A DNA stretch of 64,000 bases, from contig JAIXOR010000003.1 in assembly GCA_027486655.1 (NCBI GenBank), forward strand, positions 1 to 64,000. Direction: 5' to 3'. Below are positions 4,257 through 62,754 of the stretch, one piece after another. The position numbers and the translations under genes were made by a program. Within the stretch, counting starts at the first letter, position 1; each line of letters begins with the position of its first letter. The stretch comes from Verrucomicrobiaceae bacterium. Its GTDB lineage: Bacteria; Verrucomicrobiota; Verrucomicrobiia; Verrucomicrobiales; Akkermansiaceae. Under the pieces are notes generated by a model. That model was not told where the DNA came from. It ran no database searches and worked only from the letters and a program-made list of their open reading frames with translations.

Positions 4257-4799
4257 TGATTCAGAAATGAATGGGCAGGTCGCGGATGGAGAATCATTCG
4301 GCGCATCATGGGTTGTGATCTTTGAACGACCCGCAGTAGATGAGGTTGGAGGCTGCACTCCCAACCCTTCAGCGAATCATCCTTTTCTATTCCGCGCCAT
4401 CGGACTTCGTTAGCGGAAAATGCCGGACCTAGCCTGGGTTTCTCTGCGAACCACAAACGCAATCCGAGCCTGGAAGAGCGGCTCGCCCCAGACAGCAGAC
4501 TCGCCATCACCGCCAGTCAGTTCCCAAGGGAGACGTCTTAAAGGGACCGGCTGGTGATCCGCGAATGGAATGGATGCGGCGACTGCGGTCCTTTGCACGT
4601 GCTCGACAAATCGAATGAACGGACGGAAAGGCCTGAGGGGGTTTCGGTGTTCATGATGAGGGTTCGGCGAAGGTGCATGATCATGGATTTTCGGAGTCTT
4701 TCATTCGGATGGGTCGTTTGTGGAGCTGAAGCAGACTTCGAATCGAGCCCTCTGGGGCATTCCGGATGACGGCTAAAAGTTAATCAAAAAAACCGATAT

Positions 4800-43197: not shown

Positions 43198-45330
43198 TCA
43201 GAAGCGGCGGCGGCGCAGCAGCGCCAGCGCACCCAGTCCGCCTAACAGCGCCGCGCCGGGCTCCGGAACGGCGGTGAAGTTCAGCATCAGGTTGTTTCCG
43301 CTCTGCGTGACCGAGAACGATCCGCCTGCCAGATCATTGCTGAATCCGGCGGCACCATTGTTCGCACCGGTCCAAATCACGAAATCCGAAGGATCGAAGC
43401 CGATGATTCCGTCCGTCGTGCTCGCAAGCGTCCAACTGTAGGAAGACGTATTGTTGAAACCGGAAGCGTTTCCACTCACGTCCGGCCCGGTCGATGAGAG
43501 GGTCCACAGATTGATGTTGAAGCCACCGGCGGACAAGGCGCTGAGATCGAGGGTGCCTGTAACGGCCACGGTATCGTAGCCGGAACCTGCACTGCCGGCT
43601 GCGTCAAGCACCTGCCAATTGTAGTCACCTCCATCCAACCAGGAAAGACTGCCTGATGAGAGCGTTCCCGGGCTGTTGCCGGGAGAGATCGTCCCGGCGA
43701 TGCTCATGGCTCCGGTCACCGATCCACTTCCGGAAATCGACTGTCCGGACGCAAGGGTGAATCCGGTCACCGCGGAGACATTGAAGTTTCCGTTGTTAAT
43801 GATCGTGGAACTTGCGATCGAGCCCCCGGCAGACAAGGCGAGGGTTCCCGCACTGATCACGGTGGAACCGGTGTAGGAATTGGCAGCCCCGAGGGTGAGC
43901 GTGCCGCCGCCGGTCTTGGTCAAGCCGCCCGTGCCGCTGAGCACGCCGCTGAGGCCGATGTCAAAACTCGCATTGGTCGCATCCGCCGCCCTGAAGGTGG
44001 CGACTCCACCGAGGGTGATCGGCTGGCTGGTCGTCCAGGACGCCTTGGCTCCGACCGTGGCACCAGTCACGCTGAAGTTCGAGGTGTAGGCGTTCGTGGA
44101 AACCACCGAAACGCCGCCGGATCCCACGTAAAGGACGGCACCGTTGTTGATGATCACATCGCCACGACTGGCGGCGGTCGATGTCGCCACCCCGTATCGG
44201 ATGGCCTCCGTGGTGGTGGTGCCACCGGTAAGCAACAATTGCGAACTGTTGGCGGTGGTGGTGTTGGTGCTGAGCTGAATGCCGCTGGCTCCTGTCACCG
44301 AAAGTGTGCCATTGCTGACCTGGAGGGTGCTCCAGCGGGTGTTGGTCGTGTTTCCGATGATGGCTGAGCCACCAATGGTCAGATCACCGCCATCGACGCG
44401 CGCGGTGGCCGAGCTGTTGCTGGTGCCGATGGTGAGGTTGTTGGTGATGCCGGCCGTGCCGCCGGTCACCACGAAGCCCGATGTCAGGGGCGCGGATGTC
44501 TGACCCGGATTCGCGGTGCGCGCGAGACTCACACTCGAGGCAGTGAATGTTCCGCCGCTCACCTTGATGAGTGAACCGTCGGTGGTCGATGTTCCCACAC
44601 CACCGTTGAAGTTCATCGTTCCAGACTGGAGCTCGAACTTGGCGTTGGTCGACGACGAGCCGTAGGTGGAACTGGTGTTCGAGTTGACGGTCGCACCATT
44701 GACGATGACCGATCCCGAAGTCGTGGCGCTGAGGGTGGTGATATTGGAAACTCCTCCGGTGAAGGTCGTGGTGGTACCCGAGCCGGTGGTCGTGATGTTC
44801 AAGGGGCTCACGCTGTTGGTGAGCGCTTTGCTGAAATTGATGGATCCGCCACCTGTGGCTGTGATCGTGGTCGTACCACCCTGGGTGGAGAGGGTGGTGT
44901 CGATGTTGAGGGTTCTTCCGGAAGGCACCGTGAACGACTGCGATGCGCTGGAGGCCGTCCGGAGGTTGCCCGCGCCGGAAATGGTCAGGTTGACGGTAGC
45001 CTGGCTCAGGTCGATACCCGCGGTGCCCAGCGTGAGTGTCCGGGTCGAATTGATGCCGAGTCCGACGTTTCCACCCGGGTTGCCGCTTGCATCACCGATT
45101 TTGATCCCCTGCCAGGCAGCGGTGGTTCCCAAATTGCTGGTGTTTGCAGCGGTGACCGTGTTGTTCCAAACCGCGCGGTCGGCACTGGTCGGGGCAACGG
45201 TTGTCCAGGAACCCGCAGTAGCAAGATCATTGGTGTTGTTCGCCTTGAAGATATCAGCGGCCTGGATTCCCTGGGACATGCCACCGGCGAAGGCCGCGGC
45301 AAGGAACACATTGAAAAATCGGGGTTTCAT
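43198..45330 (-). CDS. PATR-repeat (autotransporter-associated beta-strand) surface protein with PEP-CTERM anchor
   Basis: 710 residues from ATG 45330, with signal peptide FFNVFLAAAFAGGMSQGIQA. The body is a Gly/Ser/Thr-rich beta-helix with many short parallel strands (for example SGAGNLRTASSASQSFTVPS) and a clear PATR unit (LTKTGGGTLTLGAANSYTGS) near residue 500. The C-terminus is a PEP-CTERM signal: AVPEPGAALLGGLGALALL then RRRRF. No outer-membrane barrel domain follows, so it is not a type V autotransporter. An exosortase encoded elsewhere should anchor it. It is the last gene of the pectin cluster; the role may be adhesion to plant polymer or a scaffold (inference). Confidence 0.85.
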   Translation of the reverse strand: MKPRFFNVFLAAAFAGGMSQGIQAADIFKANNTNDLATAGSWTTVAPTSADRAVWNNTVTAANTSNLGTTAAWQGIKIGDASGNPGGNVGLGINSTRTLTLGTAGIDLSQATVNLTISGAGNLRTASSASQSFTVPSGRTLNIDTTLSTQGGTTTITATGGGSINFSKALTNSVSPLNITTTGSGTTTTFTGGVSNITTLSATTSGSVIVNGATVNSNTSSTYGSSSTNAKFELQSGTMNFNGGVGTSTTDGSLIKVSGGTFTASSVSLARTANPGQTSAPLTSGFVVTGGTAGITNNLTIGTSNSSATARVDGGDLTIGGSAIIGNTTNTRWSTLQVSNGTLSVTGASGIQLSTNTTTANSSQLLLTGGTTTTEAIRYGVATSTAASRGDVIINNGAVLYVGSGGVSVVSTNAYTSNFSVTGATVGAKASWTTSQPITLGGVATFRAADATNASFDIGLSGVLSGTGGLTKTGGGTLTLGAANSYTGSTVISAGTLALSAGGSIASSTIINNGNFNVSAVTGFTLASGQSISGSGSVTGAMSIAGTISPGNSPGTLSSGSLSWLDGGDYNWQVLDAAGSAGSGYDTVAVTGTLDLSALSAGGFNINLWTLSSTGPDVSGNASGFNNTSSYSWTLASTTDGIIGFDPSDFVIWTGANNGAAGFSNDLAGGSFSVTQSGNNLMLNFTAVPEPGAALLGGLGALALLRRRRF

Positions 45331-45443
45331 GAATGGGGTTCTCTGGGTTTTCGAGGAAACGGAACAAGCCCGTTTCCGGGATTGACGGTGGGATTGAAAA
45401 GCAGGGGCAGGTGAGCGGCCAATCACCCGTACGGGTTAGCGGG

Positions 45444-48400
45444 TTACTTCACGAAGCGAAGGCGGATGAATCCGCGCTCTGGTGGGGATGCGGGGAAGGT
45501 CTTGGTGGCGCGGACGGTTTCCGGGTCGGAGCCGGGATTGAGCACTTCGAGGGTGAGGGCTTCCCAGGATTGGAAGGTGGAACTGATTTCCGCATGGAAA
45601 CTCACGTCACCGAGGTGGGCCGGGCGCTGGAAGGTCATCGAGACCGAGTTGGCGTCCCGGCTGGCGGCCGGCTGTGGGGTGAAGGCGAGCGGCTGGCCGC
45701 CGAGGGCGTATTCGGCAAGGTTGGTGAGCCCGTCCGCATCCGGATCCGCATCGGCGGCGGACAAACCGGCAAGGATCTGGGCCGGGCTGAAGTTCGCGGT
45801 TTCCCACGATGAGAACGAGCGCGGGTTGATGACCAATGCGGCGCTGGCGCTGCCGGTGTGGGCGGGATCATCGACCGTGGCAACGACCGTGTAGGTGCCG
45901 GGAGCGGCTGGAGGAGTGGATGCGCCGTTGTAGGTGGTGACCACCTGGAGTCCTCCGGGATCGGTGGCGACACTGACCGGCTTGGGAGCACCGTCGTAGG
46001 TGGCGCTGAGGTTTTGCAGGGTGATGACCGCACTGGCTTTCACCACCGTGACAGCCGCGCTGTTTGAAAGCGCGCCGCTGGTGGCGGTGACTTGCCAGGG
46101 ACCACCCGCCGCGGTGGCGGAATAGACTCCGGAAGAGTTGATGGTTCCGCCGGTGCCTGTCGAACTCCAGAGGATCGTGGGATTGGCGATCGGTGAGCCG
46201 AACTGGTTGGAAACCACAGCGGAGAAGGAGGAAGTCCCGCCGACCGTCACGCTCGCCGAGCCCGGGCTCACGCTGATCTGGGTCGGTGTGGAAATGACGT
46301 TGACCACTGCCGTGCTGGTCACCGAGAGGCCGGGTCCGTCGGCAACGGTGACGGTGATCGAGTAGGAACCGGGAGCGCCGAAGAGGGCCGCGGCGTTCTT
46401 TGCAGCGTTGGTTCCATTCGGCGAGAAGGAGACGGCGGCGGGTCCGACGGCGGACCAGGTGTAGGTCAGCCCGGGTTCGCCCGCATCGTCGGTGGCGGAA
46501 ACCGCGAGTGACGTGCCGGTGGTAGTCACGTTGGAGGGAGTGGCGGTGGCGGCGCTGGCGATGACCGGCGCTTGGTTGAGCGCGCTGACCACGAGCCGCA
46601 CCTGGCCGATGGTGGAGGTGTTGACCACCGCGGCGTATCCGGCCGGGACGTTGCCGATGTTGAGTGTGTTGTTGACGAGCGTGCCGGTGTAGGTGGCAAG
46701 GGTGAAAGTGCCTGCGGAGAATCCGGACGCGGCGGAAAGATGAACGGTGCCGTCCAGCGTGAGGTTTCCGGTGACGGCGATGAGGTCGGATGTGGATCCG
46801 AGATCCGCCTCGATCACGGCGGTCGAGGAGAGCGTGAGACCGTTGGAAAGGGCAAGCGTGCCGGTGGGATTTCCCGGAGCGAGCGTGCCATGGCAGGTCA
46901 CGGCACCGGCGATGGTTCCGTTGCCGGCGAGGCTTCCAGCGGCGGAAACGGTGGTGGGACTGGCGGCGAGCGAGCCGGTGACGGTGAGTTTCCCTGCGGA
47001 AACGGTGGTGTTGCCGGTGTAGGTGCTGGCTCCGGAGAGCACGAGGTTTCCACTGCCGGTCTTGATGACGTGCACCAGCTTGGAGGTGCTGCCGTTGGCG
47101 ATGACCCCGGCGAAGCTGCTGTCGATGTTCTTTCCACCGATGGTGTAGGTGCAGCTCGACGAGCTGTTGCTGGAGACCATGCCGAGGGCGCTTCCCGTCT
47201 GGCCGGCGAGCGCACCGATCTTGTAGGCGCTCCCCTGTCGGGCGCTGAGGTTGCGTGTGCCCAGATCAAAGGTGGCGGCGGCGCTGCCGTCGAAGGTGGT
47301 GGAAAACAGGCGGAACGAACTGGTCCCTGTGAGATAAAAGGTTCCGGAGAATCCTGAAATGTCGCCCTCGAGGTCGAAGACGTTGGTGGCGTTCAGGGTG
47401 AGGTCGGCCGAGCCGGAAACATTGCGGATGGCATGGGCTCCTCCGCCATCGCCACCCGAGATCACGGATGGTGCGGTGACGACGATGGCGTTCTGTGGCG
47501 AGAGGGCGCCGGTGGCCCAGGTGCCGCCGTTGAGGGTGACCGCGCCGGAGCCGAGGGCGGCGGCATTCGAGATGGCGACCGTGCCCTGGTGGATGGTGGT
47601 TCCTCCGTCAAAGGTGTGCGCGCCGGACAGGGTGAGCGTGCCGGATCCGGATTTGGCCAGCGAGGCGGTGCCGGTGATCTGCCCGGCTCCGGAAATCGTG
47701 TAATTCTTGGCCGCATTCACCGCGACGGCGGCCGGTGACACATTGGCCGGCAGGCTGATGGCCGATGTGGCATTGCCCGAGTCGGTGAACGAGGGGCTGT
47801 CGCCTGTCTGATAGATCGCGGGTTGCGCACCGGCGGTCCAGTTGGCGGTGGAGCTGTCCCAGGTGAATCCATTGGCCCCGGTCCAGGTGATGGGCCCCGG
47901 CCCGCGGGGTGGCTCGGCGAAGGTGATGACAAGTTGACCGGCCGTGGCGGTGCTGAAGGTGGCGGTGAGCAGCGAGCCCGCGGGCGCTTCCCAGGTGAAA
48001 ACCGGAGTGCCCGAAAGCGTGCCGGAGTAGGTGAGTGCGATGTAGGCACCGGGAGCGGGAGTAAAACCCGGAGCCGCACGGACCACGGCTCCTCCGGCGA
48101 AGGACAGGTTTCCAACAATGGCAAGGGGCGCGGATCCGAGTTCGAGGGCACCGCCGGCCTGGATGCTGACGTTTCCGGTAAGGGTGCCGCTGCCGCCGAG
48201 AGTGCCGCCGGAAGAAACGGTGAAGGCGGAACCGCTGGTCGAGCCGGTGAGGCGGAGGCGACCGGCAGAAACCGTGGTGGCTCCGGTGTAGGTGGATGCG
48301 CCGGAAAGCGTGAGGGTTCCCGTGCCGGTCTTTGTCAGGGCGACCGGACCGGTGCCGTTGGTGAGGACACCGGCGAAAGTGCCATCCTCATTGCGGGCTC

Positions 48401-51400
48401 CCACCTGATAGGTGACGGTGCGCCCGGCGGTGAGGCCGCCGCGGAGTTGCGAAGCGGCGTTTCCTGTTAGATTTCCGATCGGGATGGTGAGGTTTCCCGT
48501 CATGGTCTTGTTGTAATACGCGTAAACATCCGCGCCGAGGTCGAGCAGGGCGGCCGGATATCCCGAGGAACTCTGGAAACGGAAATCGCCGCCATCCGCA
48601 TCCGCGATGACGAAGATGCGCCCGGTGAAAGCCGACCAATTCCCGATGACCTCGGTGCGCACATAAGGCGTGTAAAACGTGAAGTCGCCCCCGCCGGTGA
48701 GAGCCCCTGTGAGATTGCAGCGACCATCGGCATTGAGACGGCCGGCGGATCCGGCTGGCACGTGGATGGACCAGGAACTGGTCGCCCACGATGGAGTATC
48801 GATGTTGTCGGTCATCTGGAGCGTGCCGCCATTCAAGGTGAGGCCGCCAGTGCCGATGCCGGAAACATTGGCGGTGTCCGAAGCAAGCACGAGTTTTCCT
48901 TCCGAGACGAAGGTGCCGCCGGCGTGGGTGTTCGAGCCGGCGAGCACGAGGTTTCCGGCACCGGTTTTGACGAGGGCCCCGGCACCGGTGAGCTGGCCGG
49001 AGATTTGCAGGGAATTGGAGGCGGGAACCGAAATCGTCCCGCCGAGGCTGCCGAGGGTGAGCGAGCGGTTGGTGCTGGTCTGCTCGCCGACAAGGGCGAC
49101 CACGCCACCGTTGATGACAAGATTGGAAGCGGCGGTTCCCGCGGCTCCGATGGAGCTGGGCGAACCTCCGTCACCCAGATTTCCGACCGCCAGCGTTCCG
49201 CCGGTGATCGATACGGGACCGGTGAATGCATTGGTGGTGGTGATGGTCAGCACACCCGTGCCGGTCTTCGTCAAGCCGCCGGATCCGGAAAGCGATCCCA
49301 CTCCGCCAAAGGTGTAGTTGGTGTCCGCCGAGACGGTGATGCCGCCGACGGGCATCGCATGGTTGAGGGTGACGTTCGGGTTGGCGGATCCGCTGGAATC
49401 AAAGGTTACCGAGTCTCCGGAAACAAAGGTGTCTGGCGAACCGCCGCGGGACCAGTTGATGGTTCGGGCGATGTCCCACGCGTTTCCACCATTGCCGCCG
49501 GTCCAGGTGATGGAGGCCGCAGCGCGGGTGACCGGGACCGTGAGGGTGATCGCTCCCGACCCGACGTTGAGGGTGTGGGCCGTGCCCTCCGGCAGGGTGA
49601 GGGCGATGTTGGCGGCCGAACCTGTTAGAGAGCCTGCGTAGGTCAGCAGCGTGTAGGTCCCCGGGGCCAACGAGCCGTTGAGCGCGGTGACCACCATGTG
49701 AACCGTTCCGGAAAGATTGAGATTTCCAGCCACCTGGATGCGATCGCTCGGAACGGTGGTTCCTGAGGGATCGTTGGACAAATCCATTGCCAGGACCGCA
49801 CCATCCTCTGCCGTGAGGGAGGATCCGAGCTGGAGGGTGCCCGCGTTGCCCATGCCGCTTCCCGGGGTGATGGCACCGCGGTATCCCAGGGTGACCGGCT
49901 GGCTGATGGTGCCGGTGCCGGCCAGGCGTCCGCCGGTTTGGCCCATCGCGAGGGAACCACCCCAAGTGCCACCCCAGACGGTGACGGGACTGGCGGAAAG
50001 CTGGCCATTGACCACCAGCGCGCCGTCCCAGATCGTGGTCGCTCCGGTGAACGGATGGCTGCCGGTGAGGATGGTCCGGCCCTTGCCGGACTTCATGAGG
50101 GTCATCGACCCCGCCAGCGATCCCGAGCCACCGAGGGTGAAATCCTGGGGATTGAAGAACGAGACCGCGGCAGGACTGAGGGTGCCTGATAGAGCGATGC
50201 TCGAGGCGTTCGATCCGGAGATGTCAAACAGCACGCGGTTCCCCTGCGAGAACGCCGCCGATGCTCCCGCGTTGTTTTTCCAAGAAGCGGAAGCGCCCGC
50301 GTCCCACGTGTTTCCCGAGGACCAGGTGAGGTCGGTGGCCACCATCGGCGCGGGCGGCACGGCGGACGGCATGCCGAAGCCAAGATAGTAGTCCACATAA
50401 CTCGCCTGCACGTATCCCTTGGTGGTCGCCTGGCAGCGATACTGCGGGTTGTGCATCAGCGTGTAGAGCCGGTTGGTAGCGGCGTTGGTGGTGGTGTAGA
50501 TGCGCAGTGCGGTGCAATCGGTCTGGACGAACACGAGTTCCTCGCGCCAATCCCCGAGGATGTCCCCCCAGAAGGTGGGGCGGCCACCGTAGGCCTGCTC
50601 GATGCTGTAAGCCCCCCAATCGCTGTACATGGTCCAGACCCGGTCGGTGACACCGGTGGTCGCATTGAACTTGTTGATGACGGGGCTCATCGCGCCGCTG
50701 CCCGCGCCATCGATGAACTCGCGGCCGAGGTCGCCGTCCCACCAGAGTCCTTCCGGAGCCCAGACGTTGTTGGCATAGATCTGCTGGCCCTTGGCATTGT
50801 AGATACCCGGCTGGGTGGAATACATTTCGTAGCCCTTGTGCACGGAGTTGATATCAAGGGCGATGCCGCGGCCGACATCCACCATGCTGCCGGAATACCA
50901 TTTGCGGATCATGTTGCCATTACTAGAATCGTAGTAGGCGGTGGCCAGCATGGTCGCGTTGTTCTGCTGGATGGCGAAGGTTTCCAGTCCCGGACGGTCC
51001 GGGTTGATGTCCGCGATGTGGAAGCGGTCGCCGTGAACGAGCGGCGTGACGAAAAGCTGGGTGCCGTTGTCGTCGAGCGTGTAGCCGAGGTCGCAGATCT
51101 CGTCCTTGCCGTCGTTGTCCACATCCGCCACGCGGATCTGGTGGCCTTCCGCGCCTGGATTCACGTTGGGATCCATGGCCCAGGTCCAGCGCAGGGAAAG
51201 CGTGCCGTTCCGGTAGTCGAAGGCATTGATCACGCGGTAGAAATCCTGGTTGTCCGCGCGGTTGTTTCCATACATCACCACGCTCGGGCGCTTACCATCG
51301 AGGTAGGCGATCATCGCCTTGTTGGTCAGCACGCCGTGCACGGCCCAGGGGTTCGGCAGCGGCGCGCGTCCGAGTTCCACACCGGAGAGCCCGTCGATCA

Positions 51401-52187
51401 CGGAAAGAAACTGCGCGGTGTCCGCCGAGGTCACGGACACCACCTGGTTGCCTGCGGCGTTGGTCACGGTGACTCCGTTCGACGTGCGGACGCAGACTTC
51501 GGCGCGGCCGTCGCCATCGAGGTCGTGGACGGTGACATTGTCGGTATCCCCCACGCTGATGGCGGAGGAGCCGGGTTCGATGGCGTATTGGTTCAGGCTG
51601 TTAGGCCCCATGGCCATGCGCCAAAGGAAGGTGCCGTCATTGGTGTAGGCTTCCAGAAACTGCTCGTAAGCCCCGAGCGTGGAGAGGCGGTCCACGACAT
51701 AATCGTAGTCCCCGTCGCCATCGAGGTCGCCGACCCAGCAGAACTTCACCGTGTAGGGGCCGTTGGGCCCGGTATCGGCACGCAATGGCAGGGTGAGGAA
51801 TTGTTTCTGCGGGGCCGCCGCGGGGAGCGCCACGGTCTCGGAAGCCGCTTGTTCGACGCCGTTGACTACAGGGCGGACGAAGTAGGTGTAGGCGTTGTTG
51901 GTGAGATTCGTGGATCCCGGGCTGTCGGTGTAGTCGGTGGTCGCAGTGATGACCGCGGTGTTGAGCTTGGTGGCGGCACCTCCGTTCGCAGAGCGGTAGA
52001 GATTGAATCCAAGATTCGGTGCCTCATGACCGAGAAGACGCCAGCTCAAGTAGATCTGGGTCGAGTTTTTCCGGACGGCGACGAGGCCGCGGTTGAGATT
52101 CTCCATCTGGCGCTGGGCATGCGCCGAACCGGCCAGCCACAGGGAAGCGGCCAGCCAGAGGATGCCGACGAAAAATCGATGCTGCAT
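45444..52187 (-). CDS. Rhamnogalacturonan lyase (PL11) fused to PATR repeats, Ig-like and MBG domains
   Basis: 2247 residues from ATG 52187, with signal peptide FFVGILWLAASLWLAGSAHA. Residues about 22-610 are a full PL11 eight-bladed propeller: RQMENLNRGLVAVRKN, then calcium loops such as WVGDLDGDGDYDYVVDR, TVHDLDGDGRAEV, DVDNDGKDEI and WGDILGDWREELVF. PL11 cleaves rhamnogalacturonan I between rhamnose and galacturonate. From about 640 to 1850 follow beta-helix segments with six clear PATR units starting near 696, 971, 1069, 1281, 1506 and 1706 (typical LTKTGTGTLTLSGASTYTG). Then a PKD/Ig-like domain (about 1870-1962), a Big_2-like domain, an MBG-like domain (about 2051-2116) and a terminal module beginning DPDADGLTNLAEYALGG and ending GFIRLRFVK. 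No barrel or PEP-CTERM signal is seen. Confidence 0.88.
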   Translation of the reverse strand: MQHRFFVGILWLAASLWLAGSAHAQRQMENLNRGLVAVRKNSTQIYLSWRLLGHEAPNLGFNLYRSANGGAATKLNTAVITATTDYTDSPGSTNLTNNAYTYFVRPVVNGVEQAASETVALPAAAPQKQFLTLPLRADTGPNGPYTVKFCWVGDLDGDGDYDYVVDRLSTLGAYEQFLEAYTNDGTFLWRMAMGPNSLNQYAIEPGSSAISVGDTDNVTVHDLDGDGRAEVCVRTSNGVTVTNAAGNQVVSVTSADTAQFLSVIDGLSGVELGRAPLPNPWAVHGVLTNKAMIAYLDGKRPSVVMYGNNRADNQDFYRVINAFDYRNGTLSLRWTWAMDPNVNPGAEGHQIRVADVDNDGKDEICDLGYTLDDNGTQLFVTPLVHGDRFHIADINPDRPGLETFAIQQNNATMLATAYYDSSNGNMIRKWYSGSMVDVGRGIALDINSVHKGYEMYSTQPGIYNAKGQQIYANNVWAPEGLWWDGDLGREFIDGAGSGAMSPVINKFNATTGVTDRVWTMYSDWGAYSIEQAYGGRPTFWGDILGDWREELVFVQTDCTALRIYTTTNAATNRLYTLMHNPQYRCQATTKGYVQASYVDYYLGFGMPSAVPPAPMVATDLTWSSGNTWDAGASASWKNNAGASAAFSQGNRVLFDISGSNASSIALSGTLSPAAVSFFNPQDFTLGGSGSLAGSMTLMKSGKGRTILTGSHPFTGATTIWDGALVVNGQLSASPVTVWGGTWGGSLAMGQTGGRLAGTGTISQPVTLGYRGAITPGSGMGNAGTLQLGSSLTAEDGAVLAMDLSNDPSGTTVPSDRIQVAGNLNLSGTVHMVVTALNGSLAPGTYTLLTYAGSLTGSAANIALTLPEGTAHTLNVGSGAITLTVPVTRAAASITWTGGNGGNAWDIARTINWSRGGSPDTFVSGDSVTFDSSGSANPNVTLNHAMPVGGITVSADTNYTFGGVGSLSGSGGLTKTGTGVLTITTTNAFTGPVSITGGTLAVGNLGDGGSPSSIGAAGTAASNLVINGGVVALVGEQTSTNRSLTLGSLGGTISVPASNSLQISGQLTGAGALVKTGAGNLVLAGSNTHAGGTFVSEGKLVLASDTANVSGIGTGGLTLNGGTLQMTDNIDTPSWATSSWSIHVPAGSAGRLNADGRCNLTGALTGGGDFTFYTPYVRTEVIGNWSAFTGRIFVIADADGGDFRFQSSSGYPAALLDLGADVYAYYNKTMTGNLTIPIGNLTGNAASQLRGGLTAGRTVTYQVGARNEDGTFAGVLTNGTGPVALTKTGTGTLTLSGASTYTGATTVSAGRLRLTGSTSGSAFTVSSGGTLGGSGTLTGNVSIQAGGALELGSAPLAIVGNLSFAGGAVVRAAPGFTPAPGAYIALTYSGTLSGTPVFTWEAPAGSLLTATFSTATAGQLVITFAEPPRGPGPITWTGANGFTWDSSTANWTAGAQPAIYQTGDSPSFTDSGNATSAISLPANVSPAAVAVNAAKNYTISGAGQITGTASLAKSGSGTLTLSGAHTFDGGTTIHQGTVAISNAAALGSGAVTLNGGTWATGALSPQNAIVVTAPSVISGGDGGGAHAIRNVSGSADLTLNATNVFDLEGDISGFSGTFYLTGTSSFRLFSTTFDGSAAATFDLGTRNLSARQGSAYKIGALAGQTGSALGMVSSNSSSSCTYTIGGKNIDSSFAGVIANGSTSKLVHVIKTGSGNLVLSGASTYTGNTTVSAGKLTVTGSLAASPTTVSAAGSLAGNGTIAGAVTCHGTLAPGNPTGTLALSNGLTLSSTAVIEADLGSTSDLIAVTGNLTLDGTVHLSAASGFSAGTFTLATYTGTLVNNTLNIGNVPAGYAAVVNTSTIGQVRLVVSALNQAPVIASAATATPSNVTTTGTSLAVSATDDAGEPGLTYTWSAVGPAAVSFSPNGTNAAKNAAALFGAPGSYSITVTVADGPGLSVTSTAVVNVISTPTQISVSPGSASVTVGGTSSFSAVVSNQFGSPIANPTILWSSTGTGGTINSSGVYSATAAGGPWQVTATSGALSNSAAVTVVKASAVITLQNLSATYDGAPKPVSVATDPGGLQVVTTYNGASTPPAAPGTYTVVATVDDPAHTGSASAALVINPRSFSSWETANFSPAQILAGLSAADADPDADGLTNLAEYALGGQPLAFTPQPAASRDANSVSMTFQRPAHLGDVSFHAEISSTFQSWEALTLEVLNPGSDPETVRATKTFPASPPERGFIRLRFVK

Positions 52188-52270: not shown

Positions 52271-52852
52271 TTAATGCCGAGGCTCTGGTTTCACCGCCCG
52301 GGTGGCTTCGAAAATTTTCACCCCCTCCTGGGAACATCGGAACAAAAACGCATCGTCCACCCGGTGAAGGCGCTTGCGGGCGAGTGGCTCGGCATCCCGC
52401 GTCGCCGCGTCACGGGTCAGATCGATCAGGCGGAAAGCGCCTTCATCGACACCGCCAAGCAGCTCGAAAAATGCCGCACGAAACCGGATCTGCGGATCAC
52501 CCGGGGGCATGTCGTAAACGAAAAGAAACGCGGCGTGCTCATCGAGTTCGAATACGCAATCCACTCGACGGGGCTTGAGCGCCTGATCACCGGCCTTGAG
52601 CGAGACCAGGCCTGGCGCCTTCTCCTTGAGGAGCGGTCGGGCCCTTTCCTGCGACGCCTGACCCGCATCTGCCGGGGCCTTTTCCCCGAGCAGCTTCCAG
52701 GCGAAGAGCATCGACGTGCGCAAGGTGATCTCGATGCGGTCCTTGCGAACGCGGATCTCGGTCTCGTTCTCAAGACCATCATGAGCCATGGCCGCGGACC
52801 AGGGGAGAACGGCCAACAGGGCGAGCAGGAGACGACGGAAAAGGTGCGTCAT
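52271..52852 (-). CDS. Small exported protein of unknown function inside the pectin cluster
   Basis: 193 residues, family not recognised. ATG 52852 begins a signal peptide (LFRRLLLALLAVLPWSAAMA) cleaved before HDGLENETEI. The mature part alternates charged beta strands and an Ala/Lys/Glu helix (RVRKDRIEITLRTSMLFAW, FELDEHAAFLFVYDMPPGD, FFELLGGVDEGAFRLIDLTR) and has two cysteines that could form a disulfide. It is 14 bases after the PL10 stop and 83 before PL11. The N-terminus after cleavage (AHD) is reminiscent of HupE-like periplasmic regions, but I do not rely on that. A pectin-specific role is guilt by association. Confidence 0.72.
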   Translation of the reverse strand: MTHLFRRLLLALLAVLPWSAAMAHDGLENETEIRVRKDRIEITLRTSMLFAWKLLGEKAPADAGQASQERARPLLKEKAPGLVSLKAGDQALKPRRVDCVFELDEHAAFLFVYDMPPGDPQIRFRAAFFELLGGVDEGAFRLIDLTRDAATRDAEPLARKRLHRVDDAFLFRCSQEGVKIFEATRAVKPEPRH

Positions 52853-53873: not shown

Positions 53874-56800
53874 TCATGGAGGAAGGACGATCTGATAGAA
53901 AGCGCGACCGACGGGAGGCGCGGGATCGGTGAAGGAGGACGTGCTGCCGGAACCGGCAGCTTGAGTGGCGATGGGAACCCAGGGACCGGACGGCGAGCCC
54001 GCACGCTGGATCTGGAATTGCAGACCGGGTTTCGATGGCCACGAAATGTGGAAACCCGGGCCCGTACTCAAACTGGTCGCTTTGAAGGACTGCTGCGGGT
54101 TACCGGGATCGAGGCCGAGACGGAACTCCGTTTTGTCGGAAGAGCCATCTCCATCCAGATCGGCGACGCCGTCGCGGGACAAACTTTTGAAGTGCGCAGC
54201 TTCCCACGCGTCGGCCAAGCCATCTTCATCGAGATCGGGGAATGGATTCCCACCGGTGGTGAACTGAAGGGTCGGACGATTCGCCGCAGTGGCGTCCTCA
54301 TCGGCCTGGGTGAGATACTGGGTGCTGCCTCCATGAAGAATCAGCGTGATCAACCGGTCCGTGGCGAGTGCGTCGGTGAGAGCGGAGCGCAGGCTGGTCT
54401 CTCCCGTGCCGAAAGTGTCCACATTGCCCGCGCCGGTTCCATTCGTGAAGCTGAGCAAGGACGCCACGGAGCCCGGCGCGAAGTCGGTATCGGTCAGGGT
54501 CTCCGGCTGATAGGAATCCTCGATGAACGGATTCGCGGCATCATAACGAATCGAAGGCATGACCAGCGAGTCATCTCCCAGAAAAACCGAAAGCGTGCGC
54601 GATCGATTGCCGATGGTGGAGCTGTTGATGGTGAGCTTGAAGTTGGCAGCGACGACCGGTTTTACAGGAATGGACGCGAGGTCGAACTTGAACACAGAAA
54701 AAAAGTGGCGCGGCCCCGCAGGGTCCTGACGGACGAAGTTCCGTTTGTTGGAATCCACGGTGACGAAGCTCCCCGAGTAGAGTCCATTGCCGTCGACTTC
54801 ATACAGCGTGCCGTCGAAACCCGCGCCACCGACCGAAGTCACCGAGTGGGCGAGAGCCTCTGGAAAAGATCCCGGATCGACGGGAGACGTGCCGGCGAGG
54901 AACTCGGCGTAGGTATTGTAGCCGTCGCCATCGGAATCATCAAGCGGACCTGCCGTGGTGATCGCCGGATAATGTGAAAGCTCCCAGGCATCTTTGATCA
55001 GATCCAGATCCGCGTCCTCCACCACGAGCACCAGTTCCAAGCGCCCATTCGCCGTGACCAACGACGCGGCATAGGCCGTGGAAACCGGGGCATCGAGAAT
55101 GACTTCCGGCAAGCCGGACACGGAACCGCTGAAGGTAGCGATGAGATGGGACCCGGAACCGGGATCCGCTGGAGCGCGGATGGTCATGGCCCCGGGCAGC
55201 GCGAGGTTTCCGGTGATGGAAAGCGGAGCACTGGAAAGCTCAAGCACACCGCCTTCCTCGATCTGGACGTCGCCGGTGATCGAACCCGTGCCGCCAAGCG
55301 CTGCGTCCGCCGCCACGGAAATGGCGGATCCAGTCGTGGAACCGGTGATGCGCAAGGTCCCCCCGGAGACCCGCGTGGGCCCGGTGTGGGTATGGGTTCC
55401 TGCCAGGGTCCAGATGCCGTCTCCGGTTTTCTCAATCGCACAACGGGCGACCGCGGAACTGTCCCGGATGGTGCCGTGGAAGATCGAGTCATCCGCATTC
55501 CTGGAGCCGACTTTCCACGTGACGAGCGCGGCCGTAGCACCGGTCTCCGTCGCCTTGAGAACGGACGATGCGTTTCCACGGAGATCGCCGAGTGGTATGG
55601 CCTGGTTTCCTGTTAGAACGCAGTAGGCGTTGACCAGCGGACCAAGCTCCACCAATGCCTGGGGAAGCCCGAGGTTGTTGCCGACACGCCAGTCGCCGCC
55701 GTCAGTGTCGGTCAGGATGCTCAGGTTTCCGGAAAAACCCGACCAGTTTCCCATCACGCTGGCCCGGATATAGGGTGTGTGAAAGGTGAGGTTCCCTCCC
55801 CCGGAGAGGCTGCCGCAGAGGTCGACTCGTGAGCCGGCGTTGACCCGGCCGCTGGAGCCGATGGGCACCACGAGGTCCCAGAAGGACCGGTGGTTCGCGG
55901 TTAGATTGTTCCACATCGTGACAGTGCCGCCGTTGAGCGTCACCAGACCTGTTCCGAATCCGTAGCTGTTGGCGGTCGCGTTGCCGAGAACGACCGTGCC
56001 GGCATCGATGGTGGTGCCCCCATAGAACGAGTGAGCTGCGCCAAAGTTCAACGTGATGTTGTTGCGGGTGGTCACGGCGTTCGCCGAGAGGGTGATGGTG
56101 GTGGGACCATCCACGCTGAGAATGCGGGTGCCATGGGGGAAATCGTGCGCCGCACTGGAGCTGGCGTAGGCAAGCCCGGCGACGAGGCCGCTGCTGGAGG
56201 AAACCGTGACGACCGGCGAACCCGCGACAACACTGGCGGTGACCGCCTGCTGGAAGGGGCTGAGTGTGAGAGTGCCGTTGCCCGGTTTGAGAAGCTCGAA
56301 TGGGCCTGCGAGGGTCCCGCTGCCGCCGAGCGTGAAGGGTTTGGCGCTGGTGTTGGTAAAGGTCATGCGGCCCGGTTGAATGGTGCCGGACATGTTGACG
56401 GAGGGTGAATTCGATCCCGCATCATTGAAGATCGGACGATCGCCATCCTGATAGAAAACCGCGGGATTCGCGGTTCCGGAGACGCGCCAGTTGGTCGCCG
56501 CATTGTTCCAAAGATTGGATGAAACACCTCCCTTCCAATCCAGGTCACGGCCGGGCGGAAGCACCGGAGGATGGGGTGCCTCAAGACTGAGGTAGTCATA
56601 CATGAAGCCCGCCGTCGCACGGTTGGTGTGAACCTCATGATCGAGCGTGATCGTGTTGACCCCCGGACGAAGGCGGCTGGCTGGGATCGGGATGCGGACG
56701 TGGGAATACTTCGTCTGCACCGACTGCCTCATGAAGCTGGATGCCCCGGGCCGCGCGTTGGGCGGGGTGAAGGTGGCGAAGGCATTGTTGTCATTGACGC

Positions 56801-58580
56801 GCAGAATCTGGATCGAGTCTGCGGAGGCGTAGGCAATGGTGAGCCAATAGGTTCCGGGAATCACCTCGTTCAGTGGGAAGTTCAGGTTCCACTTCCACGG
56901 TGCGGTGCCCACGTAGTCCACGGTGTGGGAGAAGTTGAAATTCGTCGCCCAGTTTCCCGCGGCGACATCGTAGTTGTGGGGATTGGCAAACTCGTTTGCG
57001 TATTCCAGCCACAAGGCCGGTTTCGCATATTCATCGCCGTGGCGGAACTCCGCAGCGCTCCGGTCCGGGATGCCGATCTCCCACACCAGTGATCCGCCCG
57101 GGTGGTCCACCGTGAGCGGAATCTCTCCGAGGTTCTTGCTCTCGCCGGGCGCGAAAGTGTGCTGGCCGAGCCGGAACTCGCCGACCGCGCCGGTGCCGGG
57201 CGTTTCACCCGCGCTGTAAACATAGAGCTGATAGGTCTCCGCGCCGCCGTAGGTGGAGGTCGTCTGGATGTCTGGGATGGTAAAGTTTCCGGCGGCGTCG
57301 GCCCGGACCCAATACTGGTGGCGGTCGGCCTGGAACTGCCAGTTGTCCGACGAGTTCTCACCCGAGTCCGGAGCAGCGAGGCCCACCCAGGCACCGGCCG
57401 CACTCACTCCCGGGCGGAGCGGGTCGGTTAGAACGATGCGGCCTGTCAGACTGGCGCGCTGGGCCTGCGCCTGATAGGCCGGATGGGTAACCCACGCATA
57501 AGGCCAAGCGCCGGCCTCGGCCTCTCCCTGGGCCTTGGCATCCGTCCAGGCCTGGGCTCCGGTGGGCAGGCCGTTGAAGTAGAGGCCCCAGGGCCCGATG
57601 ATCTTGGTCCACGCCCGCCCCGCGGGGATGGAAATGCCGCGATTGCTGTAGTGATTGCTGATCGGCTGGTGATAGACCAGCCCCCAGCCGTGGACGTATT
57701 CGCGACGGGTGGGGCCGTTGTTACCGTATTCCTGACTGCCCGCGACCACCCAGCTGCCGACGTCATTGATGTCACTGGCTCGCCCCCAGGTTTTGTAAAT
57801 GTTGTGCGGGATGTTGTAGGAGTATTTTCCGGTAAGCTGACCCGTGAAGGGACCGCTGGTGAGGCGGTTGATCTCACCCGGAAGGCCGGTCACCCACACC
57901 GCGTTCTTGATGTCTCCGTAACTGGGCTCCAGCGAGTTTCTCCGGAGCCGGTTGCCATTCAGGCTGAGACCGAGCTTCACGTTGTCGTCGATGTAGAGGT
58001 TCTCGCAAAGAAAGTCCGTCGCATTGTGGGCAATGGGCCAGATCATCTGGATGAACTGGAGATCCGCCTGCGGATAGGCAAGCGGGTGGTTCAGCGCGGC
58101 ATGGATGTAGAGCGTCGATTCACCCCGGCCTAGGGTGTAATGAAGCTCCACATCCATCGGCAACTGGTGAATCGAGGGCGTGTAAGGTCGCTGGTAGACA
58201 AGATCGAGACGGTCCGCATTGCCGACAGTGGCCTGGTAGGCGGTGCCTGCGGTGCCGTCCGGATACCAGTAATAGTAGATCTCGGTGTGGTTGCCAAAAC
58301 CACCGGTGCCCACACCGGACTGGCTCACCATTTCCAAGCCGTTGGCCGCAGGAGTGCCGGACAGACCGGGCTTGAGGAAGCGGATCGACTGCACGTTGCC
58401 AGTCGGGCTGATGATCGCGCGAATGATCCCGTTGTCGAGAAAGCGGCAGGTCTTGCTCCGGTAGGTCACGGTTCCCGAGGTCACCGGTGCGGTGACGAGG
58501 GTGGTGAATCCACCGGGTTCGTTGGCCCGTAGCCATGCACACGGCAGACAAACCAACAGAATTGCAAGAATCCGGATCAT
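53874..58580 (-). CDS. Rhamnogalacturonan lyase (PL4) fused to PATR repeats and a DNRLRE-like domain
   Basis: 1568 residues from ATG 58580, with signal peptide RILAILLVCLPCAWLRA. A PL4-like N-terminal super-sandwich (about 20-370) contains NGLEMVSQSGVGTGGFGNHT, ALNHPLAYPQADLQFIQMIW and YVHGWGLVYHQPISNHYSN. A fibronectin III/rhamnogalacturonase-B-like domain (about 373-490) contains ASLTGRIVLTDPLRPGVSAA, and a jelly-roll domain (about 493-665) contains TIAYASADSIQILRVNDNN. The plan matches fungal-type rhamnogalacturonan lyase (EC 4.2.2.23). Then PATR-like units near 840 and 1047, a DNRLRE-like region (about 1260-1445), a thrombospondin-3-like calcium segment (DLDEDGLADAWEAAHFKSLS) and a beta module ending AFYQIVLPP. 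The stop overlaps the alternative PL10 start. PL4 in bacteria is less common than PL11. Confidence 0.85.
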   Translation of the reverse strand: MIRILAILLVCLPCAWLRANEPGGFTTLVTAPVTSGTVTYRSKTCRFLDNGIIRAIISPTGNVQSIRFLKPGLSGTPAANGLEMVSQSGVGTGGFGNHTEIYYYWYPDGTAGTAYQATVGNADRLDLVYQRPYTPSIHQLPMDVELHYTLGRGESTLYIHAALNHPLAYPQADLQFIQMIWPIAHNATDFLCENLYIDDNVKLGLSLNGNRLRRNSLEPSYGDIKNAVWVTGLPGEINRLTSGPFTGQLTGKYSYNIPHNIYKTWGRASDINDVGSWVVAGSQEYGNNGPTRREYVHGWGLVYHQPISNHYSNRGISIPAGRAWTKIIGPWGLYFNGLPTGAQAWTDAKAQGEAEAGAWPYAWVTHPAYQAQAQRASLTGRIVLTDPLRPGVSAAGAWVGLAAPDSGENSSDNWQFQADRHQYWVRADAAGNFTIPDIQTTSTYGGAETYQLYVYSAGETPGTGAVGEFRLGQHTFAPGESKNLGEIPLTVDHPGGSLVWEIGIPDRSAAEFRHGDEYAKPALWLEYANEFANPHNYDVAAGNWATNFNFSHTVDYVGTAPWKWNLNFPLNEVIPGTYWLTIAYASADSIQILRVNDNNAFATFTPPNARPGASSFMRQSVQTKYSHVRIPIPASRLRPGVNTITLDHEVHTNRATAGFMYDYLSLEAPHPPVLPPGRDLDWKGGVSSNLWNNAATNWRVSGTANPAVFYQDGDRPIFNDAGSNSPSVNMSGTIQPGRMTFTNTSAKPFTLGGSGTLAGPFELLKPGNGTLTLSPFQQAVTASVVAGSPVVTVSSSSGLVAGLAYASSSAAHDFPHGTRILSVDGPTTITLSANAVTTRNNITLNFGAAHSFYGGTTIDAGTVVLGNATANSYGFGTGLVTLNGGTVTMWNNLTANHRSFWDLVVPIGSSGRVNAGSRVDLCGSLSGGGNLTFHTPYIRASVMGNWSGFSGNLSILTDTDGGDWRVGNNLGLPQALVELGPLVNAYCVLTGNQAIPLGDLRGNASSVLKATETGATAALVTWKVGSRNADDSIFHGTIRDSSAVARCAIEKTGDGIWTLAGTHTHTGPTRVSGGTLRITGSTTGSAISVAADAALGGTGSITGDVQIEEGGVLELSSAPLSITGNLALPGAMTIRAPADPGSGSHLIATFSGSVSGLPEVILDAPVSTAYAASLVTANGRLELVLVVEDADLDLIKDAWELSHYPAITTAGPLDDSDGDGYNTYAEFLAGTSPVDPGSFPEALAHSVTSVGGAGFDGTLYEVDGNGLYSGSFVTVDSNKRNFVRQDPAGPRHFFSVFKFDLASIPVKPVVAANFKLTINSSTIGNRSRTLSVFLGDDSLVMPSIRYDAANPFIEDSYQPETLTDTDFAPGSVASLLSFTNGTGAGNVDTFGTGETSLRSALTDALATDRLITLILHGGSTQYLTQADEDATAANRPTLQFTTGGNPFPDLDEDGLADAWEAAHFKSLSRDGVADLDGDGSSDKTEFRLGLDPGNPQQSFKATSLSTGPGFHISWPSKPGLQFQIQRAGSPSGPWVPIATQAAGSGSTSSFTDPAPPVGRAFYQIVLPP

Positions 58581-58755: not shown

Positions 58756-61218
58756 TCAAGGGGCGACGATCTGATAACGCTTGCCAGCCTTTGCCTCGAA
58801 CTTGGTCAAGGTCCTTTGGAGGTCCCCGACCTTCAGCGGCTCGGACGTGAAGCGGATGCCGTCGACCTTGATCGGAAACTCCGTGCATACCACGCAGGTG
58901 CCATCCCTGGCCGCATGAAGCGTCGCAGTGGAGAGACGCGCTTGTTTCCACTCCATGTCCACCGTGTAGCCGCCCGCCGCGCGCAGGCCCTTGACGCGGC
59001 CGGACTCCCAGGCATCCGGAAGGGCGGGAAGCAACTGGAGCATGCCGAGATGGCTCTGCAGCAACATTTCGGTTATCCCTGCCGTGCCGCCGAAGTTGCC
59101 GTCGATCTGGAAGGGGGGATGGGCGCAAAGCAGATTCGGATAAGTGCCGCCCTTCTCCTTGAAACTGACCGATCCGTAGTTGTCGGACATCTGGAACAAC
59201 TCGCCCAACAACTTGTGCGCGTGATTGCCATCCAGCAGACGCGCCCAGAAGCAGATCTTCCAAGCCTTGCTCCAGCCGGTTCCACCATCGCCGCGCATTT
59301 CGAGAGTCTTTCGGCAGGCGTCGGAAAACCTCGCGTCGATCAACGGCGAGATCTCAGCGGCCGGGTGCAGGCCGTAAAGATGGGAAACATGGCGGTGCGC
59401 AGGATCGAAATCCTCGTAATCTTCGATCCACTCCTGCAATTGCCCGTGGCTTCCGATGCGCTGGGGACGCAGTTTCACCAGCTGGCCTTCGAGTTTCTTT
59501 CTGAAATCCTCGTCCTTTCTGAGAATCTTTGACGCCTCAATGACACTCGAAAACAAATCGCGGATGATCGACATGTCCATCGTCGAGCCGACACTGATTT
59601 CCACCCTCCTGCCATCGTGCTTGAACGAATTCTCCGGAGACGTCGACGGAGCCGTGACAAGGAAGCCGTCTTTACCGGGGATCAGGAAATCGCTGCAGAA
59701 CTCCGCAGCTCCCTTCATGAGAGGATAAGCGGTTTCTGACAGAAATACGGTGTCTTGTGAAAACTGATAGTGTTCCCACAAATGGCGGCACAACCATGCT
59801 CCGGCCATTGGCCAGCAACTCCACCGCGGCACCCCTCCCCCGCCTCCGGCGGGATTGCAGGCTCCCCAGGGATCCGAATTGTGGTGCACGCACCAACCGC
59901 CGCAGTTGTAGAAATCCCTTGCAGCGGCAGCCCCCGTCACAGACAGCCGTCGGATCTGTTTGAAAAGCGGCTCATGCATCTCCGCGAGGTTGCATGATTC
60001 CGCAATCCAGTAGTTCATCTCAAGATTGATGTTGGTCGTGTAGTTCGAACGCCAGGTGGGGCGGAGATCCTTGTTCCAGAGTCCCTGGAGATTCGCCGGA
60101 ACCTCGCCACGGGAACAGGAAATGAGCAGGTATCGGCCATACTGGAAATACAGTGCTTCCAGCCCCGGATCCGGTTTGCCCTTATTGTGGCTTACGAGAC
60201 GCTCGTCGGTTGGAAGATGTGAGGAATCCGTGGTTCCCAGCTCAAGGTCCACGCGATTGAAGAATTTCTGATAGTCCCTGACGTGCGCTTCCCTTAGCTG
60301 TTGGAATGTCTTCTGGGAAGCGGCCTTCATTGCATTGGCAGCGATCAACGATTCGTCCCTGCCATCCCGATCCGGGCACTTGTCAAAGCCATTGTAGGAA
60401 GACCCGGCGGTGACCAGGATCATGACCTCCGAAGCGCCGGCAACATGAATGCCAGCCGCATCCGAAGTAACGGTTCCATCCTTGGGAATCACCTTGATAT
60501 GATACTGGAATCGGACGCCCTTGCATCCCTCGGCATCATCGAAGACCAGGGGTTTCGGGCTCTTCGGGTCATCCCCGCGAATGCGGGTTTTGCCCTTCAC
60601 AATGAACTCATTGCTGCCCTCCGGCACATTCAGGTGTCGAAGCTGGCAAACGCTCACGATGTCGAAGTCGAGGGCCCCGTTTTTCGAGGCCTTCAGGTTC
60701 ATCACCACCGCCTGATCGGGATTGGAAACGAAGGCCTCGGTCGAGTAGTCCACGCCCTCAAAGGTGAAACGAGAGGAAGCGATGCCGGTGGCAAGGTCCA
60801 ACTCACGATGATAGCCGGTGAAGTTTCCCGTGCGGCGGAAGTTCAATAGCATGTCGCCCATCGGCTGATAGGCTTCACAGCTCACCCCCTGCATCTTTTT
60901 CTGGATGGCGGTGGCATCCTCGAAGCGGTTTTCAAACAAAGCCTTGCGGATGTCGTCGAGATGGGTGTGGGCATCCGGATTGTTGTGAAGATTGACCGGA
61001 CCACCGCTCCAAAGCGTTTGCTCGTTGAGATGGATGGTTTCCTTGAAGGGCTGGCCGTAGACCATCGCGCCCAAGGAACCATTCCCGAGAGGCAGCGCCT
61101 CGTTGAAGTGTCCGGCTGGCTTCTGATACCAAAGCTTCAGATCACCAGCCTCCGACCGCTCCGCCAGTGCCGGGAAAAGAACAACCATCAAGCTTGTGAA
61201 ACAGAGTCTTATCTTCAT
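58756..61218 (-). CDS. GH95 alpha-L-fucosidase/alpha-L-galactosidase
   Basis: 820 residues from ATG 61218, with signal peptide [21 protein letters not shown]-terminal domain landmarks are [20 protein letters not shown] and [20 protein letters not shown]. The (alpha/alpha)6 barrel carries the Asn pair of [16 protein letters not shown] (about 393), Glu in PSTSPENSF (about 526), and Asp in [20 protein letters not shown] (about 704). These correspond to the catalytic Asn, Glu and Asp of the inverting Bifidobacterium AfcA enzyme. It removes terminal alpha-1,2-L-fucose or L-galactose, probably from pectin or hemicellulose side chains. It follows the esterase gene by 19 bases. Confidence 0.94.
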
Positions 61219-61237: not shown

Positions 61238-62701
61238 TCAAGGATCCGCCGGGCGGTGAATGTTCACCGGCCAGTCGTCGGTGCGGAACGAACGCGCCGG
61301 GAGCCCGCCCGCATTGACGAGGTTCGGATTCGCCCGTTCATTCCATGCAAAGCGGACGGCAACGGGTTTGGGAACCTTTTTGGAACTAACGAAGACGTAT
61401 CCGCTGCGGATCGTTGCCTCGGCGGGATGAAACACACGATCGTCGCCCGCCAAAGTGAACTCACCGGGTGGCTGCCGATCTTTCGTGCGCAGTCCTCCCG
61501 CGTGATCAAACTTGAGGGCCACCTTGTCGCCTTGTACCCGCATCTCCTTGAAAACCGGTCCGGAGTCCACCACGTCCTTCACGCCATAGGTGCGGGCAAG
61601 AGCGATCCGGGCAAGCCGATCACCGACGTCCTTCTTGTTAGTGGGGTGAATGTCGCCCAACTGAGCCACGGTATCGGTGATCACCGCCATTCCGGTGTTG
61701 GGGATGGAGAGCGCTTTGGCTTGCGCCTCCCAGAACATGGGCAGCGCCTCGGCGGAATAGGGTTTCGGTATCTTCCTAGCGGAGTACGTGTGAGGAGCGA
61801 GTTGGACGTAATAGAACGGAGCCTCCGGCAGCTTCCAAACAGACCGCCAACCCGAGATCAAGGCGCGCATTTTGTCGGCGTAGATCATGCCATCGTTCGC
61901 CATCAGATTGGACTCCCCCTGATACCAGAGAAATCCTCGGAGCGCATAGGGTGCCAGCGGCTTGATCATCGGATCATACAAGCCGCCGATCCTGACATCG
62001 CCCAGCTTCCGGTCCCCTGCGGCGGCTTTGGCGATATCCTCGAGTCCGGCGATTCCCTGATAGGCTTCCGGTGGCGTCCACAGCTCAATGCGGGTCCCAC
62101 CGACACTCGAATGAATGAGACCGACCGGAACATCCAGCTTCGCCTGCACTTCGCGGCCGAAGAAATAGGCGGCGGCCGAAAAGCTCATTTGGTTCACCAC
62201 CTCGGAGCTGCATGGATGCCAGCGCATCGTGAGATCGTTTTCCTGCGCCCGACCGCCCCTCGGCATTTGAAAAACGCGAAGGTTTGGATGATTGGCTTCC
62301 CGGATTTCCTTCTCGGCGTTGTCGGTAGGGCGTTGTCCTTTGCGTTCGCCAAGTGGCTTCTCCATGTTCGACTGCCCCGAACAAAGCCAGACCTCGCCGA
62401 CCAGCACATCGTCGAAACGAATCTCATTGGTGCCTGAGACCAAAAGCACCCTCGGAGCCGAACTTGCGGCAAGGGGTGGAAGTTTCACCTGCCATTTCCC
62501 ATCGCTTCCCGCGATCGAATGGGATTCGTTCCCTGCAAACTTCACCGTGACTTTCTCACCCGCATTTGCGGTCCCCCAGATCGGAATCGTTTGATCACGC
62601 TGAAGCACCATGTGGGAACCAAACACAGGAGGACACTTCACTTCAGCACGGGCAAGGAAGGGCCATCCTGCTAGACTCAGGAAAATGACTGTGTGTTTCA
62701 T
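61238..62701 (-). CDS. Sialate O-acetylesterase-like (SGNH) carbohydrate esterase
   Basis: 487 residues from ATG 62701, with AGAAGG upstream and signal peptide [19 protein letters not shown]. An N-terminal beta domain ([20 protein letters not shown]) precedes the SGNH esterase domain: block [17 protein letters not shown] with nucleophile Ser near residue 109, [25 protein letters not shown], and the Asp-His of [20 protein letters not shown]. Family members remove O-acetyl groups from sialic acid or xylan/pectin sugars. In this neighbourhood plant polymer acetyl groups (pectin) are the likely target (inference). It lies 53 bases after the GH29 stop. Confidence 0.9.
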
Positions 62702-62754
62702 AAAAAACCTTCTATTGTTGAAAAGCATGTGACGGATGCCAGGACATTCCCCAT

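Follow-up and report, generated by a model that had tools for sequence, protein, structure and literature searches.

Results

Locus and Reading Frame

The DNA analyzed here, referred to in what follows as the window, is a stretch of 64,000 nucleotides. On its minus strand a single open frame of 2247 amino acids with 0 internal stops extends over positions 45444-52187, with the ATG at 52187 and the stop codon at 45444-45446, and the plus strand of the same interval contains many stops and no open gene frame. An alternative in-frame ATG is located upstream at 52337; the signal peptide starts at 52187. The protein is made up, in order, of a signal peptide, a PL11 enzyme, six PATR repeats, PKD/Ig and MBG domains and a C-terminal module that we refer to as the CTD, without a barrel; these features and those of the neighboring pectin cluster are all on the minus strand. 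The signal peptide (residues 1-25, MQHRFFVGILWLAASLWLAGSAHAQ; 52113..52187) was read from the translation, in which no lipobox is seen, and the most hydrophobic 19-aa stretches start at residues 4-6.

Directly downstream of the PL11 gene lies a protein with one PATR repeat and a PEP-CTERM-like tail, VPEPGAALLGGLGALALLRRRRF (43198..45426), that scores 17.2 bits against PEP-CTERM, below the cut-off of 20.7. On the other side are a pectate lyase (Pec_lyase, TIGR02474; 52867..54042, E 5.7e-105), a PL4 rhamnogalacturonate lyase that by Pfam and our CTD model has both PATR repeats and a CTD (53874..58580), the latter of a second subtype that ends in FYQIVLPP (53877..54212, E 2.6e-17), a GH95 protein (58756..61218, E 6.1e-180) and, from domain matches, an acetylesterase of the SASA type and an alpha-L-fucosidase of the GH29 type, the latter running past the window edge (61241..63999). 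Judged by their predicted functions, the same-strand neighbors all fit the breakdown of rhamnogalacturonan and fucosylated pectin. At positions 3-4376 the window also encodes a protein of the M60-like_N peptidase type that carries Big_5 and Laminin_G_3 domains and has no relation to the pectin cluster.

PL11 Enzyme and Its Relatives

Two Pfam domains cover the start of the mature protein, the RGI_lyase beta-sheet domain (PF18370, residues 26-120, 51828..52112; E 7.5e-22, 77.9 bits versus a cut-off of 27.8) and the PL11 propeller, RGL11_C (PF21348, residues 139-609, 50361..51773; E 3.5e-82, 277.2 bits versus a cut-off of 27), the propeller region, for which calcium loops had been proposed, giving in addition only a weak FG-GAP match (Pfam, E 0.017). 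When the first 600 residues are compared with the PDB using phmmer the matches include YesW (2z8r, E 1.8e-79) and 4cag (E 4.4e-79). Both PL11 domains are shared with YesW and YesX of Bacillus subtilis (phmmer E 1.8e-79 and 2.2e-71), but these are single enzymes of ∼600 aa, whereas the window protein carries 1600 more residues after the enzyme. A preliminary description of this DNA had placed a 2247-aa PL11 lyase at 45444-52187 with the enzyme in the N-terminal ∼600 residues, and the open frame together with the two above-threshold Pfam domains bears this out; the window protein is a secreted PL11 rhamnogalacturonan-I lyase, with secretion and activity predicted from sequence. The same genome encodes a second, free-standing PL11 frame of 622 aa (C42:33766-35238), too short for rod and module, so that short and rod-borne versions coexist.

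Of 384 genomes of the class, 53 have PL11, many of them with frames near 600-800 aa. We examined 26 PL11 frames, 24 of which had been picked for an open frame of >1100 aa, and PATR is present in 21 of these 26, a share of long frames and not of all PL11, with exactly six repeats in 11 and a terminal CTD match in 14. A search of relatives for PL11 followed by six PATR repeats thus succeeds in 11 of 26 cases, and the protein, contrary to the emphasis of the preliminary description, is not a one-off. The two halves also belong to one protein, as had been assumed, since they lie in a single open frame here and the PL11-PATR fusion is kept in relatives. Seven of the 21 PL11-PATR relatives (L155, L156, L161, L162, L163, L164 and L175) are without a CTD match and have tails resembling FYRVVVAP, AFYRIEVP or RFYMLHVP, which perhaps represent a further CTD subtype.

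PATR Rod

The PATR beta-helix rod extends over residues ∼610-1865 (46593..50360), as delineated by Pfam, NCBIfam and an alignment of orthologues. Pfam finds six PATR stretches, 139.9 bits in total, at residues 697-726, 972-1001, 1072-1101, 1284-1313, 1510-1538 and 1708-1736, and the NCBIfam model TIGR02601 likewise finds six; in a reversed-ORF control there were 0 PATR and 0 CTD matches among 1468 reversed ORFs. An AlphaFold2 model of residues 600-1240, computed from an alignment with two orthologues, is almost purely beta (mean pLDDT 71, pTM 0.56) and its best match in the PDB is the passenger of the Ssp autotransporter (8e7f, E 1.0e-5), followed by a fragment of IcsA (E 0.013). The model, of medium confidence and covering about half of the rod, supports a beta-helical structure, so that the earlier assignment of six PATR repeats on a passenger-type beta rod holds. 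The PATR motif and the predicted beta-helical stalk are features in common with the type Va autotransporters Ssp (8e7f), EprS and IcsA, from which the window protein differs by having no barrel, six repeats versus one, another enzyme head and another C-terminus. The Ssp paper places a PATR in the stalk and cites work on secretion efficiency (PMC9977779).

Spacer Domains

Between the rod and the CTD are a PKD domain (residues 1871-1964, 46296..46577; PKD_4, 29.8 bits, above its cut-off of 27 in a separate scan of the last 510 aa), an Ig-like (Big) domain at residues ∼1966-2050 (46038..46292; a weak Big_1 match, E 0.011) and an MBG_3 domain (residues 2053-2122, 45822..46031; E 1.8e-22 in the last 510 aa and 2.9e-21 in the whole protein). 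PKD/Ig, Big_2-like and MBG-like domains had been proposed for this region; PKD and MBG could be confirmed, while the 'Big_2-like' domain reached only the Big_1 match above.

Two orthologues, from Luteolibacter marinus NBU1238 and from the Verrucomicrobia MAG UWPOB_VERRUCO3, are each 78% identical to the window protein over the enzyme and collinear with it over enzyme and rod. The PKD and Ig domains are missing in both and thus found only in the window protein, and MBG occurs in two of the three aligned proteins, being kept in the MAG (L178) and missing in Luteolibacter marinus (L179). The PKD/Ig/MBG block, with which the protein had been said to end, is therefore optional, and we reject it as the functional end. 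What comes last is the constant module of ∼123 aa that the preliminary description left unnamed and that is shared with >100 other proteins; in the Luteolibacter marinus orthologue it is of the other subtype than in the window protein.

Absence of a Barrel and of Known Terminal Signals

C-terminal pieces were scanned separately because a whole-protein scan missed the one true autotransporter of this genome, which is empty when scanned whole and gives PF03797 with E 2.1e-27 when only its last 317 aa are used. No PF03797 barrel was found in the whole PL11 protein, in its last 300 aa, in its last 510 aa or in the 300 aa before those. Ten relatives, scanned over their last 300 aa, also lack it, and a missed barrel is accordingly rejected. 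With the positive control recovered by the same piecewise scan, the statement that the protein has no autotransporter barrel stands.

Neither a strongly hydrophobic segment near the C-terminus nor an LPXTG motif was found in the PL11 protein and, with no lipobox and no LPXTG, a lipoprotein or LPXTG anchor was ruled out. A PEP-CTERM tail was ruled out as well: the protein ends in GFIRLRFVK with no hydrophobic segment, and a set of 60 CTDs contains no match to PF07589.

C-Terminal Module

The CTD of the window protein (residues 2125-2247, 45447..45815) consists of a Trp, a TSP3-like loop, DPDADGLTNLAEYALG, a beta-sandwich and the terminal strand GFIRLRFVK, as defined by an iterated HMM, a 60-copy alignment and an AlphaFold2 model (pLDDT 70), and the model match ends 3 aa before the stop. 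The last ∼123 residues themselves match neither Pfam nor NCBIfam, whereas a search of the same genome with them gave 78 matches at E ≤0.01, and the HMM was then iterated to 98 ORFs taken from stretches around PATR and CTD matches. The 98 copies have a median pairwise identity of 25% and in 96 of them the ORF ends ≤12 aa from the module. They sit on very different proteins, 252-3970 aa in length, 62 with and 36 without PATR (by our own HMM), and 87 have signal-peptide-like starts by a crude rule. The 60-copy alignment has three invariant positions, W4, D28 and N32, and shows conservation of at least 90% at D24, D26, G29, E35, P42, W84, F116 and R118; the window protein has this signature, namely the terminal position, the Trp and D-x-D-x-DG-x-x-N-x-x-E loop and the terminal F-x-R strand.

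When the genome was searched with the 60-copy alignment, 150 of 316 candidates were scored and at least 149 CTD matches reached E 1e-3; in the corresponding PATR search 150 of 506 candidates were scored, so that both genome totals are lower bounds. We fetched 136 CTD-matching ORFs, of which 129 end ≤9 aa from the CTD, a figure that rests on a model built from C-terminal copies; five of the seven not counted as terminal run off the fetched stretch. Internal matches also exist, three running as far as the model end and 29 partial ones that are mostly to the calcium loop. Proteins with two copies, one of them internal, are rare (L188, C54:1-2200 of this genome, and L193, C50:8000-13000), and at C17:85554-85922 of this genome a CTD match lies in a frame with one TAG stop, which the genome search read through.

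In scans of 60 copies at E 0.01 none of the Pfam and NCBIfam families consistently covers the module; 6 of the 60 match TSP3_bac and 10 match NF042425 (Amuc_1099_fam), the latter taken to be a match to the calcium loop. Among open-licence papers we found no title or abstract describing the CTD. AlphaFold2 models of five CTDs (pLDDT 70, pTM 0.65) predict a short helical start, the loop and a sandwich with the last strand at residues 115-122. Among solved folds the model comes closest to cytokine-receptor FnIII domains (Z 7.2) and to a CBM21 chain (VIA Z 5.7); Foldseek ranks CBM21 domains first (E 8.8e-3, prob 1.00), and the best PDB sequence match of the CTD profile is the starch-binding domain of glucoamylase (E 0.1). 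The predicted likeness to FnIII and CBM21 would be at the level of a common sandwich fold. There is thus a weak resemblance in fold and sequence to CBM20/CBM21 starch-binding domains, but no match at a convincing level, and the CTD has in addition a calcium loop at its start.

Two Ends for PATR Proteins

In order to obtain a set selected independently of the tail we picked 69 ORFs of the genome by PATR score alone. Forty-nine end in a CTD, 18 in a PEP-CTERM-like tail, assigned by our own regular expression and not by a family model, and 0 in a barrel; of the remaining two, one runs off its stretch and one was not located, leaving 0 barrels in 67 classified ORFs. The count of zero among the 69 follows from the genome's only PF03797 match being another ORF. 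Over all PATR ORFs fetched there are 62 CTDs, 19 PEP-CTERM-like tails and 3 open cases, none with both ends.

The genome has three exosortase matches. Like PEP-CTERM, the CTD is a C-terminal region common to many unrelated secreted proteins and it is the alternative PATR end in this genome; unlike PEP-CTERM, it has no PEP motif, hydrophobic helix or basic tail, is five times longer and does not match PF07589. Type IX secretion relies on C-terminal domains of ∼70-100 aa with an Ig-like beta-sandwich at the C-terminus, and the CTD is similar in being a terminal beta-sandwich, here a predicted one, on many large enzymes. None of 60 CTDs matches the type IX CTD families among the Pfam and NCBIfam profile models at E 0.01. 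A search of the genome for SprA_N (PF14349) gave no match and a control search was equally silent; type IX domains are absent from the fold-search matches of the CTD, an absence that proves nothing.

Distribution in Verrucomicrobiota

Of 288 Verrucomicrobiota genomes, 200 contain the CTD (E 1e-4), those without a match including reduced genomes of families f4, f7 and f9, and in 24 genomes of the window's own family the copy number varies from 0 to 147. One barrel is found in the genome studied here and 0-3 in 26 family members outside one genus, designated g2 and from size and kinship presumably Akkermansia, with 0-147 CTDs, while all 16 genomes of g2 have 4-34 barrels and 0-8 CTDs. Over the 42 genomes, 18 of which have CTD counts from the best ≤15 candidates each (three of these counts being lower bounds), the barrel and CTD counts are anticorrelated (rho -0.36), but inside either group they increase together (rho 0.55 and 0.38). 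Because of this reversal we count the trade-off as one event, essentially a single between-genus difference. At G005:C1:62701-63459 a barrel match falls within a single open frame of 21153 aa, which would make an extremely large autotransporter. In Akkermansia muciniphila, for comparison, a barrel domain is reported for nine outer-membrane proteins and a PEP-CTERM is predicted for 23 proteins (PMC4960237).

In the phylum sample exosortase was found in 133 of 134 strong-CTD genomes (E 1e-10) versus 81 of 154 others. The sole exception, G113, whose genome is 100% complete in one contig, has a strong CTD (E 8.5e-23) and no exosortase match. Because shared ancestry and genome size may be all that lies behind this association, we have left it out of the main evidence.

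Discussion

The CTD is terminal, occurs on unrelated secreted proteins, is exchanged for another subtype on orthologous enzymes and is never accompanied by another terminal signal, and for these reasons we favor a reading in which the last ∼123 residues of this stalked rhamnogalacturonan-I lyase, standing in the place of a barrel, are an unclassified C-terminal targeting or anchoring module; from the sequences at hand we would put its chances at about even. The protein would be exported by Sec via its signal peptide, the PL11 domain would, by homology, fold as a catalytic head and the PATR beta-solenoid, in part modeled, would form a rod of ∼1250 residues, with the optional PKD/Ig/MBG units, as comparison of orthologues shows, lengthening the spacer. 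The CTD, a putative calcium loop and beta-sandwich with a terminal F-x-R-hydrophobic-x-V strand, may then be recognized by an exporter in the outer membrane or by machinery for surface attachment, and the lyase would thereby be held on or near the cell beside PATR proteins sorted by PEP-CTERM. No gene for an export or attachment partner of the CTD was found, and the internal matches, three of them full copies and 29 partial, argue against targeting.

The main rival reading makes the CTD a carbohydrate-binding module through which the enzyme would adhere to its substrate or to exopolysaccharide of its own cell; such a module would act after export and take no part in membrane crossing. A glycan-binding domain could yield much of the same pattern, and a binding role would fit a predicted Ig/FnIII-like sandwich resembling CBM21 equally well. 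The CBM21 and glucoamylase matches point this way, as does the location in a pectin cluster, and exosortase, a marker of exopolysaccharide-linked sorting, is present in nearly all strong-CTD genomes. However, the structural matches are all weak, Ig-like folds are common and FnIII scores higher than CBM21; exosortase is also present in about half of the other genomes, with shared descent and genome size as confounders, and a binding module need be neither exclusively C-terminal nor an alternative to PEP-CTERM. We regard this explanation as somewhat unlikely.

A lower probability still attaches to the CTD being no more than a cap that helps long beta rods to fold or shields them from proteases, in which case it would have no targeting role and the proteins would simply be secreted. 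Rods often need a cap, and 62 of the 98 CTD proteins carry PATR rods. The other 36 do not, however, 19 PATR proteins without a CTD end in PEP-CTERM-like tails, and in the window protein PKD/Ig/MBG domains stand between the rod and its supposed cap.

That the protein is instead a type V autotransporter with a missed barrel, or one served by a separate TpsB-like barrel in two-partner secretion, is very improbable despite the passenger-like rod and the presence in the genome of one PF03797 protein. Neither the protein, its scanned pieces nor the ends of 10 relatives contain a barrel; the sole recognizable barrel of the genome (L152:1-6051, contig C37) belongs to its own 2017-aa frame on a different contig, in which no PATR was found. 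Two-partner secretion relies on an N-terminal TPS domain, which appears in no scan of the window protein. Finally, the artefact of two genes joined by an assembly or sequencing error can be dismissed, as the fusion is conserved in 21 of the 26 PL11 frames, from independently assembled genomes, and 11 of these have exactly six PATR.

The secreted enzymes with which Verrucomicrobiota degrade polysaccharides of plants and algae are very large, and it is usually for their PATR repeats that such proteins are labeled autotransporters. Since 49 of the 69 top-scoring PATR ORFs end in a CTD for which there is no Pfam or NCBIfam model, a label derived from PATR alone is misleading. Neither the enzyme of the window protein nor, within its family, the fusion is out of the ordinary, and the interest lies in the CTD, by which the 'unknown route' of the preliminary description becomes a concrete, testable module. 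Tentatively, and with less assurance than for the targeting or anchoring reading itself, we suggest that the CTD might mark an unrecognized pathway by which Verrucomicrobiota would export or anchor proteins through their C-terminus, distinct from type V, type IX and exosortase. Such a pathway would serve >100 rod proteins and giant enzymes in a single genome and replace barrels in free-living members of the family. The module is short and terminal, occurs in dozens of natural fusions and can be tested singly; if it is a targeting signal it would provide a handle on how the phylum places its enzymes outside the cell.
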